A stretch of DNA of 64,000 nt, taken from Paenibacillus sp. JNUCC32. GTDB taxonomy: Bacteria > Bacillota > Bacilli > Paenibacillales > Paenibacillaceae. Below are positions 20,480 to 25,752 of the stretch, piece after piece. The position numbers and the translations under genes were made by a program. The DNA is taken from assembly GCF_014863545.1 (NCBI RefSeq), contig NZ_CP062260.1, positions 4,915,501-4,979,500 on the forward strand. The letters run 5' to 3'. Each line of letters opens with the position of its first letter. Within the stretch, counting starts at the first letter, position 1. The notes under the pieces were generated by a model. That model searched no databases. It was not told where the DNA came from and saw nothing but the letters and a program-made list of their open reading frames with translations.

Positions 20480-20785
20480 TTACCCGCCTAACTTTTCCTG
20501 CACGGATTGGATCTTCTGTTTGCTTGAGGAGACCCGGTCCCTGCGGTCGTCAATTTTAACGGAAGTCGATACGCGCTTTGCCCCGGACAGAAAAGGCGCT
20601 TCATGCAAAGCCTCAATCGCCCGCCAGATCATGTTAAGCTCTCCCTCGATGATCGTGCTCATCGATGTCAGCTCATAGGAAATCCCTTCCTGCTGTTTCA
20701 GTATTCGCTGCATCTCGGCGACATAAGCGCTTAAACTCGTGGTTGCGGTTCCGATCGGAATCACCGTTACCTCTGCTATTGCCAT
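20480..20785 (-). CDS. Thiamine-binding protein, MTH1187/YqgV family (DUF77)
   Basis: A 101-residue protein beginning MAIAEVTVIPIGTATTSLSA. The fold-defining segments are LEVTVIPIG-like, GISYELTSMSTIIEGELNMIWRAIEALHEAPF and GAKRVSTSVKIDDRRD, which match the MTH1187/YkoF-like thiamine-binding family. It probably binds thiamine or its pyrimidine part in the cytoplasm. GAGGGGGG precedes ATG at 20783-20785. It is divergent from the nrd region. Confidence 0.85.
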   Translation of the reverse strand: MAIAEVTVIPIGTATTSLSAYVAEMQRILKQQEGISYELTSMSTIIEGELNMIWRAIEALHEAPFLSGAKRVSTSVKIDDRRDRVSSSKQKIQSVQEKLGG

Positions 20786-20908
20786 CTGAACAACCCCCCT
20801 CGTCATATCTCAATCATGCGATGCTCTTCCATTTTCCAATTCCAATTCCGGATACGGATATCATACCAATTTCGGTCCGCCATATCAAAGCCCTTCAGTT
20901 TTAGCTTC

Positions 20909-20924
20909 ACACAAGATATAGTGT
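20909..20924. promoter_or_regulatory. Distal NrdR box
   Basis: ACACAAGATATAGTGT matches 15 of 16 positions of the NrdR consensus (acaCwATATaTwGtgt). It lies about 210 bp upstream of the promoter-proximal NrdR box pair. Confidence 0.6.
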
Positions 20925-21077
20925 ATCCTGCCCGCCTCATCCATACGGTAATATCCTATTTTGTCAAAACGAGAATATACGCGGTATCTGCGCAGAAAAG
21001 GTCGCATTTGGTCACAATCCAGGAAATCTTATCGCCTTTTGACAGTTTCTTAACTGGCACAATGACCGCTCGTTTGC

Positions 21078-21141
21078 TATAATTCTTTTTGCGTTCAATT
21101 TTAAGAATATGGTTTACAAACACAATATATTGGGTTAAATT
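21078..21141 (+). promoter_or_regulatory. nrd operon promoter region
   Basis: Two candidate promoters are seen. One is an extended -10, TGCTATAAT (21075-21083). The other is TTTACA (21113-21118) with a 17-bp spacer to TAAATT (21136-21141). The second has NrdR box 1 lying in its spacer. Confidence 0.5.
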
Positions 21142-21167
21142 AGATTAACAACAACCAAATATAGTGT
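21120..21167. promoter_or_regulatory. Pair of NrdR boxes
   Basis: Box 1, ACACAATATATTGGGT at 21120-21135, matches 15 of 16 consensus positions. Box 2, CAACCAAATATAGTGT at 21152-21167, matches about 12. Their starts are 32 bp apart, three helical turns, as is usual for paired NrdR sites. Confidence 0.75.
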
Positions 21168-21169
21168 AT

Positions 21170-21415
21170 ATAGGTGCCGGATCAACCCATAAGGCAGTCC
21201 GGCTTAATAGGGAAGCATGGTGTAAATCCATCACGGTCCCGCCACTGTAAGGGCTCTTAGGCTGTTCATCATTTTTTTCAGCCATCCTCATACGGCATAG
21301 CCGCCGAAGAATCGGATCAAGGTTTTCGGGAGGCACCGCCGGGAGGCAGAAGCCCGAGTCAGAGACCTGCCTATATGCAGCAGACACCAACCTACGGGGC
21401 TTTAGGTAAGTGTTC
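21170..21415 (+). promoter_or_regulatory. Cobalamin (B12) riboswitch aptamer
   Basis: The leader carries the conserved B12-riboswitch elements in order: GGTGCC at the start, GGGAAGC-ATGGTG-AAATCC, CCCGCCACTGT at about 21238-21248, and the B12 box AGCCCGAGTCAGAGACCTGC at 21351-21370. The variable arm lies between them. Adenosylcobalamin binding is expected to favour the downstream terminator at 21495-21537 and so repress nrdA transcription. Confidence 0.93.
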
Positions 21416-21494
21416 GTTAAACTTGCGTCTGTACATAACATCATGCCCGTTCAAGGGCTTATGTCAAACGTCATTTCCGAATCACAGCGCACGG

Positions 21495-21537
21495 ACATTT
21501 TCAAGCCTGCCCGCGGGTTTTAGAAAATGTTTTTTTG
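21495..21537 (+). terminator. Riboswitch expression platform: intrinsic terminator before nrdA
   Basis: ACATTTTC (21495-21502) pairs with GAAAATGT (21523-21530), enclosing a GC-rich inner segment and followed by seven T. It ends about 45 bp before the nrdA start, the position expected for riboswitch-controlled transcription termination. Confidence 0.85.
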
Positions 21538-21582
21538 ATGTCCTTTTTCATATTTCCCCCGAAGAAAGCGAGGAATTTATTC

Positions 21583-23916
21583 ATGCCCCAGCTCGTAGTT
21601 AAACCGAACAACCGTCAGCTCGCCTTTGATGAAATTCGCCTCTCCGTCTATGCCGACCGGACTCTGAAAGGATTGGACATGCTCGATAAGGAGCGTCTGC
21701 TTCGCGGCGTCAATGCCAAATTGCGCGGTGAGCAGGTTACCGGCGAAGAAATCAGCAGCGCCTTCACGATGTCCGCCCTTGAGCTTGTAACTAAAGAGGA
21801 GCCGAATTGGAAGTTTGCAGCTGCGCGTTCGTTTCTGACCTCTTTATATAAAAAAGCGGCTACCAACCGCCGATACAAAGCATACCCGGAAGAACCATAC
21901 GGTGCCTTCTACCCGCTCATTACGGAGCTTGTGCAAAAAGGCATCTATCGCGAGGACCTTCTGACCAGCTACACCAAAGAACAAATCGAAGAACTCGGCG
22001 AATGCATCGATCCAAGCCGGGATCTGCTGTTTGACTACATCGGTCTGTTGACGCTGGCTGAGCGTTACCTGGCAAACGACTTTGACGGTCGCGTCATGGA
22101 ACTTCCGCAAGAACGCTACATGGTCATCGCGATGTTCCTCATGCATAACGAGCCTGCCGACAAGCGTCTTGACCTTGTCAAGGAAGCCTACTGGGCCATG
22201 AGTAACCTGTACATGACGGCGGCTACGCCGACCATGTCCAATGCAGGTAAAAAAGTAGCCGGCCAGCTGTCCAGCTGCTTTATCGATACCGTGGACGACT
22301 CCCTGGAAGGAATCTTCGATTCCAATACGGACATCGCCCGTCTCAGCAAAATGGGCGGCGGCATCGGGGTATACCTCGGTAAAGTCCGTGCACGCGGCTC
22401 TGACATCCGTGGTCACAAGAATACCAGTTCCGGCGTCATCCCTTGGATTCGCCAGTTGAACAACACCGCTGTTAGCGTTGACCAATTGGGAACTCGTAAA
22501 GGCGCCATCGCGGTGTACTTGGACGTGTTCCACAAAGACATCCTGTCCTTCCTGGATCTGAAGCTGAACAACGGCGACGAGCGCATGAGAGCGCATGACG
22601 TGTTCCATGGCGTATGCCTGCCCGACCTGTTCATGGAGGCTGTAGAAGCTCGTGAAGAGTGGAGCCTGTTCTGTCCGCATGAAGTGAAGAAAATCATGGG
22701 CTGGAAAGACGAGAACGGCCGTCCGCTAGGTCTGGAGGACTTCTATGACCATACTCAAGGCGAAGGCGAATTCCGCCAAAAATACGCGGAAGCCGTAGCG
22801 AACCCGCTGCTGCCGCGCATTACGGTACAAGCCATCGACATTATGAAGCGCATCATGAAATCCCAGCTTGAAACGGGTACGCCGTACATGTTCTACCGCG
22901 ACACGGTCAACCGTGCGAACCCGAACTCGGCTCATGGCATGATCTACTCTTCCAACCTGTGCACGGAGATCATGCAGAACCAATCTCCGACGGTCGTTGA
23001 GCAAGAGGAGCTGGTTACGAAAGACGGCCAAACCCGGATCGTGATTTCCAAAATCCCTGGCGATTTCGTTGTCTGCAACCTGAACTCCATCCACTTGGCC
23101 CGTGCCGTACCTGCCGGTGTGCTGGAGCGTCTCGTTCCGATCCAGGTTCGCATGCTGGATAACGTCATCGACATTAACAATATTGAAGTTCTGCAAGCTC
23201 AATACACCAACAGCCAATATCGCGCGGTCGGTCTCGGCACCTTCGGTCTGCACCACTTGCTGGCGCTGGAAGGCATCCGCTGGGAATCCGACGAAGCCGT
23301 TGCCTATAATGACAATCTGTACGAACACATCAACTACCTGCTCGTCAAATCCAGCATGGAGTTGGCCAAGGAAAAAGGCCACTACCCGAAATTCAAAGGC
23401 TCCGACTGGGAGAGCGGCGAGTACTTCACGTTCCGCGGTTATACCGACGGCGAGCATGAAGGCAAGTTCGTGACCACCGAACAGTGGCGTGAATTGCAGC
23501 AGGAAGTGCAAGCGAACGGCGTCCGTAACGCATGGCTGTTTGCCATCGCGCCGAACGGCTCCACTTCGATCATCGCGGGTTCCACGGCGAGCATCGATCC
23601 ATTGTACGAACTTCTGTCTTATGAAGAAAAAACCACTTATAAAGTGGCGAACCCTGCTCCGGATCTGTCCGAGAAAACGATCTGGTACTATAAAACGGCT
23701 TTCTTGATCGACCAGCATTGGTCCATCAAAATGGCTGCCGCCCGTCAGCGTCACGTTGACCAAGCGCAAAGCTTTAACCTGTACGTCCGCCCTGATATCC
23801 GGGCTTCGGAATTCCTGGAGCTGCATCTGCATGCCTGGAAAGCCGGCATCAAATCCACGTACTATGTACGCAGCCGCGCGCTGACGATTGAAGAGTGTGA
23901 GTCGTGCGCAAGCTAA
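21583..23916 (+). CDS. nrdA: Class I ribonucleoside-diphosphate reductase, alpha subunit
   Basis: A 777-residue catalytic subunit that reduces ribonucleoside diphosphates to deoxyribonucleotides. The N-terminal 90 residues form an ATP-cone. Active-site residues are visible: Cys232 (GQLSSCF), the thiyl-radical Cys460 with Glu462 (SNLCTEI), Cys498 (VVCNLNS), the PNGSTSIIAGSTASIDP loop, and the C-terminal CESC (772-775) that regenerates the disulfide. The protein is B12-independent, yet it lies behind a B12 riboswitch and NrdR boxes. ATG at 21583 follows GAGGAA; an earlier in-frame ATG at 21535 lies inside the terminator. The beta subunit gene starts 804 bp downstream. Confidence 0.95.
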   Translation: MPQLVVKPNNRQLAFDEIRLSVYADRTLKGLDMLDKERLLRGVNAKLRGEQVTGEEISSAFTMSALELVTKEEPNWKFAAARSFLTSLYKKAATNRRYKAYPEEPYGAFYPLITELVQKGIYREDLLTSYTKEQIEELGECIDPSRDLLFDYIGLLTLAERYLANDFDGRVMELPQERYMVIAMFLMHNEPADKRLDLVKEAYWAMSNLYMTAATPTMSNAGKKVAGQLSSCFIDTVDDSLEGIFDSNTDIARLSKMGGGIGVYLGKVRARGSDIRGHKNTSSGVIPWIRQLNNTAVSVDQLGTRKGAIAVYLDVFHKDILSFLDLKLNNGDERMRAHDVFHGVCLPDLFMEAVEAREEWSLFCPHEVKKIMGWKDENGRPLGLEDFYDHTQGEGEFRQKYAEAVANPLLPRITVQAIDIMKRIMKSQLETGTPYMFYRDTVNRANPNSAHGMIYSSNLCTEIMQNQSPTVVEQEELVTKDGQTRIVISKIPGDFVVCNLNSIHLARAVPAGVLERLVPIQVRMLDNVIDINNIEVLQAQYTNSQYRAVGLGTFGLHHLLALEGIRWESDEAVAYNDNLYEHINYLLVKSSMELAKEKGHYPKFKGSDWESGEYFTFRGYTDGEHEGKFVTTEQWRELQQEVQANGVRNAWLFAIAPNGSTSIIAGSTASIDPLYELLSYEEKTTYKVANPAPDLSEKTIWYYKTAFLIDQHWSIKMAAARQRHVDQAQSFNLYVRPDIRASEFLELHLHAWKAGIKSTYYVRSRALTIEECESCAS

Positions 23917-23938
23917 GAGTTTAGATTAACCTTTTTCG

Positions 23939-24010
23939 AACCCACCCAACCCCTCCCTTCCAAGGGAGGGCCCCAAGGGCTCTGCCCTCTGGACACCCGC
24001 AAGGTGGGTT
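23939..24010. repeat. Dyad-symmetric GC-rich element after nrdA
   Basis: AACCCACC (starting 23939) and GGTGGGTT (ending 24010) flank an inner hairpin CCCTCCC...GGGAGGG and a CTGCCCTCTGGACACCCG segment. It looks like a dispersed intergenic repeat, which would need a genome-wide search to confirm. It could act as a processing site or attenuator between nrdA and nrdB. Confidence 0.45.
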
Positions 24011-24022
24011 GGATGTGAATGA

Positions 24023-24440
24023 GGCGCTTCTTAAGTTGCTTTAGTGGCTAGGAGCGCTTTCTCCCTGCGGGAACGCTGGAATGCGGCGCGGGGACTTCTG
24101 AGTTACTTCGTGTGATTTGTTGAGTTACTGTCTGCTGGGATCGCTCTCCCCTTGGGAATCGCTTCTCATGCGGTGCGGGGACCTTTGAGTTACTTCGTGC
24201 TATTTGTTGAGTTACTGTCTGCGTGGATCGCTCTCCCTTTGGGAATCGCTTTTCATGTGGTGCGGGACTACTGAGCTACTTCGTGCGATTGGTTGAGTTA
24301 CTGCCTGCGTGGATCGCTCTCCCCTTGGGAATCGCTTTTCATGTGGTGCGGGGACTATTGACCTACTTCGTGCGATTTTGAGTTACTGCCTGCGTGGTTC
24401 GCTCTCCCTTTGGGAATCGCTTCTCATGCGATGCGACAAG
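24023..24440 (+). repeat. Tandem repeat array, about 87-bp unit, four to five copies
   Basis: Four similar units begin near 24090, 24177, 24264 and 24350 (periods of 87, 86 and 87 bp), and a diverged copy precedes them from about 24023. Each unit carries GAGTTACT twice, then TCGCTCTCCC-TT-GGGAATCGCTT and a CATGCGGTGCGGGG-type end. Units differ by substitutions and small deletions. No convincing coding frame runs through the array. Confidence 0.85.
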
Positions 24441-24720
24441 CGTCGAGCGGCTGCATGCGGGGGGTCTCGCATAGCAGGCGGGAATAAGCTTTCTAACTAA
24501 AAGACTACAAGGGTAAGGGTATCCAATCGGAAGAGTTTACGTCCGCCTTTGGGAGCCCTTTGCAACCTTTAAAATACATTAAGGCAAAGGGCGGACAACA
24601 GCGGCTGGAGATGGATACCCGTCCCGGTGTGGATACCCGTTCCATGAATATGCTGGGAGGTTTCCCTCAGGCTTCGCCTATGCGCCGCCCTATTATGAAA
24701 TACAAGGAGAGAAAATCGGC
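24441..24720 (+). other. Leader region of nrdB
   Basis: This 280-bp stretch has no supported gene. It contains an imperfect inverted repeat (TCCGCCTTTG near 24542 and CAAAGGGCGGA near 24587) and a duplicated GGATACCCGT (near 24615 and 24630). No NrdR box was found here, so nrdB may depend on transcription from nrdA or on an unrecognised promoter. Confidence 0.4.
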
Positions 24721-25752
24721 ATGCAAATGCAAAAGATATTTAACACCGAAGCACCCAACCGCTCCACTCGCGTCATTGAAGGTGAATGCTCCGGGATCCT
24801 GAACTGGAACGACATTCGGATGCCTCATATGTATAAATTGTATAAGGTTCTGCTGCTGAACCACTGGATCGCGGATGAAATTCCGATGTCCAAGGATGCG
24901 CAGCAGTTCCCGCGCCTGGACCCTGAAGAGCAGCGCACCTTCAAAATCAACATCTCCCTGCTGGCTGTGCTCGATTCCATGCAGACGATGTTTGTCGGCG
25001 ACGTGAAGCGTTACTTCACCGACTCGTCGCTCGAAGCCATCTCGGCCATCATCGGTCAGCAAGAGGTGGTTCACAACCAATCCTATTCCTACGTGCTTTC
25101 CTCCATCGTATCGGAGCAGGAGCAGAAGGAAATCTTCGAATACTGGAAGCATGATCCGGTTCTTCTGGAGCGCAACCAGTTCATCTCGAACATTTACCAG
25201 AATTTCCGCGACAATCCGTCGCCGCAATCCTTCTTCGAAGCCATGGTCGCCGACCTGATCCTGGAAGGGATTTTCTTCTACAGCACGTTTGCCTTCTTCT
25301 ACAACCTGGCCCGTGACCAAAAGATGATGGCAACCAGCCAGATGATCTCCTATATTCAGCGTGACGAGAACCAGCACTGCTACTTCTTCGCCGAAGTGTT
25401 CAAGCAGCTGCTCAAGGATTTCCCTGAGCTGAACACCAAAGAGAACATCGACTACCTGTACCGCACCATTGACCGTGCCGTCGAGCTCGAAACCAACTGG
25501 GCCCACTACACGCTCAGCAATGTGCGCGGCATCGATCTGAACGAGTTGAGCGATTACATCAAGTACATCGCGAACCGTCGCATCACCATGATGGGTCTGG
25601 AAAAAGCTTACGAAGGCGTGGACGTCAACTGCATGCCATGGATCAAGCCTTTCTCCGACGAAGCCCTCAACGCAACGAAAACCGACTTCTTCGAAGCCAA
25701 ATCCCGTAACTACGGCAAAGTTGGCGACGACAACGGCTTTGACGATCTATAA
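24721..25752 (+). CDS. nrdB: Class I ribonucleotide reductase, beta (radical-generating) subunit
   Basis: A 343-residue ferritin-fold protein that holds the metal cofactor and tyrosyl radical for NrdA. Ligands are at Asp85 (LLAVLDSM), Glu115 and His118 (GQQEVVHNQSY), Glu182 (LILEGIFF), Glu216 and His219 (RDENQH). Tyr122 falls at the position of the E. coli radical tyrosine, so a tyrosyl-radical class Ia/Ib enzyme is expected. No nrdI or nrdH lies nearby, so metal usage (Fe or Mn) is open. GGAG lies upstream of ATG at 24721. A terminator follows at 25771. Confidence 0.95.
   Translation: MQMQKIFNTEAPNRSTRVIEGECSGILNWNDIRMPHMYKLYKVLLLNHWIADEIPMSKDAQQFPRLDPEEQRTFKINISLLAVLDSMQTMFVGDVKRYFTDSSLEAISAIIGQQEVVHNQSYSYVLSSIVSEQEQKEIFEYWKHDPVLLERNQFISNIYQNFRDNPSPQSFFEAMVADLILEGIFFYSTFAFFYNLARDQKMMATSQMISYIQRDENQHCYFFAEVFKQLLKDFPELNTKENIDYLYRTIDRAVELETNWAHYTLSNVRGIDLNELSDYIKYIANRRITMMGLEKAYEGVDVNCMPWIKPFSDEALNATKTDFFEAKSRNYGKVGDDNGFDDL

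Follow-up and report, generated by a model that had tools for sequence, protein, structure and literature searches.

The 64,000-nucleotide stretch of the Paenibacillus sp. JNUCC32 genome analysed here (hereafter the window) carries an nrdA gene whose leader probably acts as a two-input gate, through which NrdR and a cobalamin (vitamin B12) riboswitch would together control a B12-independent class I ribonucleotide reductase (RNR). The computed evidence comprises the NrdR boxes, the aptamer, the terminator, covariation of the antiterminator, the presence of nrdJ and nrdR, a scan that found no ring-building methyltransferase, and conservation in kin. nrdA (21583..23916, + strand) encodes the class I large subunit of 777 aa (NCBIfam PRK09209.1, 1294.7 bits; PF02867, PF00317), and nrdB (24721..25752, + strand) the small subunit of 343 aa (NCBIfam PRK09614.1-3, 411.4 bits; PF00268). 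From 5' to 3' the leader contains a distal box, an upstream promoter candidate, the proximal promoter with box 1, box 2, the aptamer, a P13 hairpin and a terminator, after which nrdA begins.

Anatomy of the nrdA leader

The proximal promoter, TTTACA-17-TAAATT (21113..21141, + strand), was found by scan and would start the RNA near 21148. Across 13 aligned leaders TTTACA is invariant and the spacer nearly so, and the same promoter recurs before nrdDG. NrdR box 1 (ACACAATATATTGGGT, 21120..21135, + strand) lies within this spacer, is conserved in kin, and has one mismatch to the pattern ACACWANATATWGTGT, which we take to be the NrdR box consensus. Box 2 (CAACCAAATATAGTGT, 21152..21167, + strand) follows 32 bp after box 1 with three mismatches, and abuts or overlaps the first bases of helix P1, which starts at 21167 in the RNAalifold structure; its AAATATAGT is invariant in the 13 leaders. 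The distal NrdR-type box (ACACAAGATATAGTGT, 20909..20924, + strand), 211 bp 5' of box 1, matches the pattern with 0 mismatches and agrees with ACACWATATATWGTGT at 15 of 16 positions. The two boxes 32 bp apart and the additional distal one are just what the original prediction had described. Counterparts of the distal box, matching at 12-14 of 16 positions and 209-211 bp from box 1, are present in five close kin (L009, L011, L012, L013 and L014), and none was seen at that distance in the remaining loci compared with them. Boxes with at most one mismatch were expected a mean of 0.00 times in 100 shuffles of the window. At the level of box 2, 1.72 chance matches per window are expected, so that this box is weak alone, and it is the 31-32 bp spacing and the conservation in kin, not its own score, that argue for it. 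The pair lies over the promoter about three helical turns apart (21120 and 21152), the arrangement by which we recognise the NrdR regulon, and NrdR is predicted to bind it.

Downstream of the boxes, a search with Infernal against Rfam gave a cobalamin riboswitch aptamer at 21155..21388 (+ strand; RF00174, cmscan gathering match, E 3.3e-17), the significant match that the original prediction had proposed looking for. The match spans positions 1-189 of the 189 in the model without truncation and scores 76.9 bits, compared to a gathering threshold of 31.5. Furthermore, 14 of 37 pairs show two-sided compensatory changes among 12 aligned aptamers, the window's included. The riboswitch had been called complete, which applies to the coverage of the model and does not extend to the core, where the alignment of the aptamers reveals a one-base deletion in the B12 box (AGTCA-GAGACC, 21361..21364, + strand). 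The intact core motif (AGYCAGGAGACCTGCC; consensus AGYCAGGAGACC) is therefore lacking one G. The family assignment stands on the whole RF00174 model, and the missing G lowers the claim that the aptamer would function normally.

A P13-type hairpin, found by folding, follows at 21381..21417 (+ strand; CCTACGGGG...TTAGG within ACACC...GTGT), and its CCTACG is found in all 13 aligned leaders. Its loop and 3' side form the antiterminator strand (21397..21415, + strand), which by folds and duplex energies pairs with 21493-21508, the 5' arm of the terminator. The intrinsic terminator itself (21493..21536, + strand; -15.4 kcal/mol) consists of a hairpin whose stem is kept in the 13 leaders and a U tail (T run 21530-21536), and it stands before nrdA in the predicted order. 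It is missing from the output of a simple terminator scan, probably owing to the stem and loop limits of that scan. When the RNA is cut before the 3' arm of the terminator, the minimum free energy fold of each of the 13 leaders has the 5' arm paired, at least in part, with the P13 region. The cognate antiterminator duplexes average -14.5 kcal/mol, versus -8.8 kcal/mol when partners are exchanged between two sequence groups; 20000 permutations gave no value as low as that of the cognate set, and for eight representatives 8 of 40320 were this low, the cognate included. Antiterminator and terminator are thus mutually exclusive, less clearly so in L010, L012 and L019, and this exclusion together with the covariation predicts a switch that is turned off by B12. 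Leaders of the nrdDG-nrdAB type show the same anatomy by eye. Two other pairings were discarded: an antiterminator at about 21455-21467 that by eye could pair with the terminator arm, since the folds choose otherwise, and an outer helix of UGCGUCUGU and ACAGCGCA, which is present in just one of the two sequence groups.

In the mechanism we propose, the ligand, the direction of switching and NrdR binding are either inferred or drawn from established knowledge of these families. At the DNA level, plentiful deoxynucleotides would load NrdR with dATP, and the loaded protein would bind both boxes at the proximal promoter and stop initiation. At the RNA level, an aptamer bound to adenosylcobalamin would keep P13 closed, leaving its 3' side unable to pair with the 5' arm of the terminator, so that the terminator would form and transcription would end before nrdA. 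When B12 is absent, P13 would open and become the antiterminator, and nrdAB would be made. Imported B12 would then move the cell from the class I to the class II reductase, because nrdJ carries NrdR boxes, and a genome scan that scored 150 of 429 candidates detected no riboswitch at that gene.

The genome (7.0 Mb) holds the genes that this mechanism calls for. As the original prediction had suggested checking, we searched it for nrdJ and nrdR and found both, nrdJ by profile search as an open frame of 885 aa (TIGR02504, 566.9 bits, above the cut-off) and nrdR with 218.5 bits (TIGR00244). nrdD scores 493.7 bits with the anaerobic reductase model, under the cut-off of 764, at a locus (L090) that contains only part of the gene; at L091, checked as a neighbour of an NrdR box, no RNR gene was seen by eye. 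The riboswitch scan found two cobalamin riboswitches, the one before nrdA and a second downstream of cbiB (201.4 bits, cut-off 165.9) and upstream of a gene for a BtuF-like substrate-binding protein (BtuF model 87.8 bits, under the cut-off of 234). Of the four TP_methylase matches in the genome, two are uroporphyrinogen-III methyltransferases, and one of this pair carries a fused part that resembles uroporphyrinogen-III synthase; the others are a 16S rRNA methyltransferase and YabN. No methyltransferase that builds the corrin ring was seen among these four, and the gene content thus suggests that the strain probably scavenges its B12 by import.

The cassette in related genomes

We compared the best 80 of 156 relatives, and what is said of kin holds for these close ones; the locus counts include the window and exclude L087. 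The cassette was sought with a model built from the aptamers, and a 50-genome scan was run with stricter filters. It either immediately precedes nrdA or lies about 3 kb upstream of it, in front of nrdD-nrdG-nrdA, which gave 13 loci of the nrdAB type, 26 of the nrdDG-nrdAB type, 4 with degenerate leaders and 37 without a riboswitch. Three loci were assigned across contig breaks (L018 to the nrdAB type, L038 and L047 to the nrdDG-nrdAB type). In the nrdDG-nrdAB type, nrdD comes next in 26 of 26 loci, and nrdG and nrdA were seen behind it in 24 of 26.

The cassette is present in 43 of the 58 genomes with nrdJ (the 43 include the four degenerate leaders and the three contig-break assignments) and in 0 of the 22 without. 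Counted as riboswitch and nrdJ, the 80 genomes divide into 43 with both, none with the riboswitch only, 15 with nrdJ only and 22 with neither (Fisher p 3.5e-10). The link holds when the four degenerate and three contig-break rows are removed (36/0/15/22, p 5.1e-9) and when the degenerate leaders are counted as lacking a riboswitch (p 1.1e-8). The shift from class I to NrdJ that had been predicted for B12-rich conditions accords with the presence of nrdJ and with a cassette that never occurs without it in the 80 genomes; it is the core deletion that tells against the shift for this particular aptamer.

Several further loci show how variable the cassette is. A single B12 riboswitch heads a joint nrdD-nrdG-nrdA cluster, class III together with class I, in L023, L037, L063, L073, L077, L100-L105, L115 and others, and where the upstream DNA of such leaders is present it contains an NrdR box pair. 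In L076, nrdD remnants lie between a decayed riboswitch and nrdA (2283-2530), and this locus is possibly an intermediate between the nrdAB and nrdDG-nrdAB cluster types. L148 comes from another family of the order; there a similar promoter, a box-like site and an aptamer of 99.3 bits (331-750) precede a class I nrdA of 30% identity. The kin leader in L146 (1501-1570) matches the window over the promoter with its boxes and over the terminator, and not over the aptamer.

Alternatives to the proposed two-input gate

A number of findings weigh against the gate. The upstream promoter candidate, CTGGCA-18-TATAAT with a TG before the second hexamer (21054..21083, + strand, from a consensus scan), may escape NrdR; by eye, a TATAAT-like element stands at a similar place in several kin leaders. 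nrdB, 804 bp 3' of nrdA, may have a promoter of its own. Single NrdR-like boxes with at most two mismatches number 27 genome-wide versus 54 in the reversed control, and because they are no commoner than in that control, the claim rests on the box pairs, namely that of nrdA (32 bp), one 33 bp apart before nrdJ and one 31 bp apart before nrdD, of which one member is weak (11/16). Only 4 pairs join the 5' arm to P13 in L012, and in L010, L012 and L019 the terminator arm pairs better elsewhere than with P13 (ranks 7/43, 6/43 and 8/41). When corrected for kinship the nrdJ link is not significant, since six independent contrasts yield a mean of 1.9 that agree, 0 that disagree and 4.1 with no difference. 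Finally, among the 13 nrdAB-type aptamers the conserved core G is absent only in the window, the other 12 of 12 reading GGAGAC.

This last point bears on the alternative that survives best. It is possible, if somewhat doubtful, that the riboswitch of this genome is decaying, its B12 sensing broken by the core deletion, and that NrdR alone governs nrdAB with constitutive partial termination or read-through. The deletion sits in a highly conserved segment, which in known structures includes the junction J6/3 at the ligand, and a gap there may leave this strain with a weakened B12 response or none at all. The segment is also altered in 4 of 26 nrdDG-type aptamers (L037, L047, L050 and L077; intact in 22 of 26), where the cores of L047 and L050 were read from L143 and L135 respectively, taken from contig number and position to be the same genomes, and it is not intact in the four degenerate leaders (L020, L055, L072 and L076). 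Furthermore, L022 has lost the aptamer and kept the promoter and NrdR boxes. However, the window has an intact P13, antiterminator and terminator, each nearly the same as in close kin, and its 76.9 bits fall inside the range of the 12 other nrdAB-type aptamers (76.1-104.6); of the four degenerate aptamers, three also exceed the Rfam gathering score (46.2, 54.8 and 32.8 bits), and the missing G is possibly an assembly error. We favour a gate with both inputs.

Shared ancestry could also account for the nrdJ association, through early loss of the riboswitch in one clade and later patchy loss of nrdJ with no functional link, which we think unlikely. In its favour, 31 of the 37 riboswitch-less loci form one side of a supported branch, the tree needs 4 changes for the riboswitch label and 8 for nrdJ, and a sign test on the contrasts above is not significant. 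Against it, 200 random pairings gave 0 contrary pairs, and both riboswitch and nrdJ are missing from L064 and from L056 and L057, which have identical NrdA and are nested among riboswitch-bearing kin. A leader that senses another cobamide, or whose aptamer region merely sets constitutive attenuation while NrdR does the actual regulating, would fit a ligand that is not readable from sequence and the terminator-like hairpin seen by eye without an aptamer in L022, but is very improbable given the RF00174 membership, the compensatory changes and covarying antiterminator, which point to a selected switch, and the absence of the cassette from all 22 genomes without nrdJ.

A possible replaced sensor, known systems and neighbouring genes

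In 16 of the 80 loci, from the Paenibacillus pabuli/xylanexedens clade, the promoter, NrdR boxes and terminator are kept and the aptamer is replaced by a conserved extended hairpin of about 157 nt (about 2460-2840 in each of L024, L025, L028-L031, L033, L034, L036, L039, L040, L042, L043, L071, L074 and L075). Nine of these genomes have nrdJ and seven do not. In 10 of the 16 loci, 96.1% of cells pair, versus 29-47% when the sequences are slid, and 6 pairs are changed on both sides versus 1.4 in shuffles (0/500). Other measures weaken the case: further pair types are not above shuffles (496/500 as high), the covariation term contributes only -0.8 kcal/mol, and single-sequence folding gives z-scores of only -1.1 and -1.7. 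Rfam scans of 7 of the 16 loci found no family at the leader and no cobalamin match at E up to 0.5. We also considered whether these leaders are decayed aptamers detectable by a model and rejected this, as the aptamer model R1 reached at most 13.5 bits, over the box region. The extended-hairpin leader was not found in 100 genomes of the window's genus, a set that had no positive control. That the nrdA leader is built from modules with an exchangeable sensor, and that the extended hairpin belongs to a new RNA class that senses a metabolite or protein and controls RNR, is speculative and on balance improbable, and we treat this RNA as a lead rather than a finding. As such, the sensor-swapped clade offers a candidate for a new RNA regulator of DNA-precursor supply.

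A B12 riboswitch reportedly precedes the class I operon nrdABS of Streptomyces coelicolor, in experiments credited to Borovok in 2006, a study cited by PMC4342826 and PMC5962746; the likeness is in the target and the difference in the host, an actinobacterium. A further parallel is Propionibacterium acnes, where the relevant passages of PMC3848588 describe an nrd-box over the nrdAB promoter, an annotated cobalamin riboswitch with premature termination, a riboswitch annotated on nrdDG as well, and nrdJ in the genome. Paenibacillus has one cassette, placed ahead of either nrdAB or a joint nrdDG-nrdAB cluster, whereas P. acnes has, according to these passages, a single box at nrdAB and separate riboswitches for nrdAB and nrdDG. 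Among Firmicutes, passages of PMC4342826 and PMC8390425 place cobalamin riboswitches before class I reductase genes, nrdAB of Bacillus methanolicus and nrdEF of Priestia megaterium respectively. A text search of PMC4342826 for 'nrdr' gave 0 matches, and the passages of PMC8390425, where 'nrdr' itself was not searched for, make no mention of NrdR boxes. In deltaproteobacteria, B12-elements precede nrdDG, and a B12-independent reductase is likewise predicted to be B12-repressed where NrdJ exists, there for class III only and in another phylum (PMC545781, in the part concerned). PMC2211319 mentions neither nrd nor ribonucleotide reductase in its text, and a Paenibacillus nrd riboswitch was not met in the passages of PMC8123684 and PMC8390425, the two papers that a search on this combination listed, with the subscription literature mostly outside this scope.

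In view of the B. methanolicus, P. megaterium and P. acnes examples, as these sources present them, the original prediction overstated its case in treating double control in a Firmicute as undocumented. Published work already covers the logic of B12 and isozymes, class I and nrdDG as targets, and the combination with nrd-boxes. What is new is that box 1 occupies the spacer of a conserved promoter, that box 2 abuts P1, and that the 3' side of P13 is a covarying antiterminator with the 5' arm of the terminator. The principle is ordinary and the detail well supported, with the core deletion and the natural series in kin as its notable features. The leader extends a design of NrdR plus riboswitch, known from an actinobacterium, to a Firmicute genus, and could let a probable B12 scavenger respond jointly to deoxynucleotide level and to the supply of B12 through a single 470-base leader. 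The kin provide intact, core-mutated and fossil leaders, as well as sensor-less leaders where the B12-dependent enzyme is missing, and this series makes the order of loss, whether sensor, enzyme or operator first, testable.

This genome and Paenibacillus lautus NBRC 15380 have NrdA proteins of 100% identity. A second class I nrdA lies on contig 2 at 47779 (L005, L006; 1257.7 bits), adjoining a RuvC-like gene whose score is under the cut-off and, by eye, an HNH-type gene without an NCBIfam match; L005 has no NrdR box matching at least 13 of 16 positions, and no riboswitch was found at this locus. Upstream of the window's nrdA, the divergent neighbour (20480-20806, - strand) is an MTH1187-family thiamine-binding protein, and the distal NrdR box lies between its gene and the nrdA promoter. 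The gap between nrdA and nrdB (804 bp, 23917-24720) contains an 87-bp unit repeated 4.1 times, and in kin with both ends seen this gap ranges from 15 to 1005 bp.

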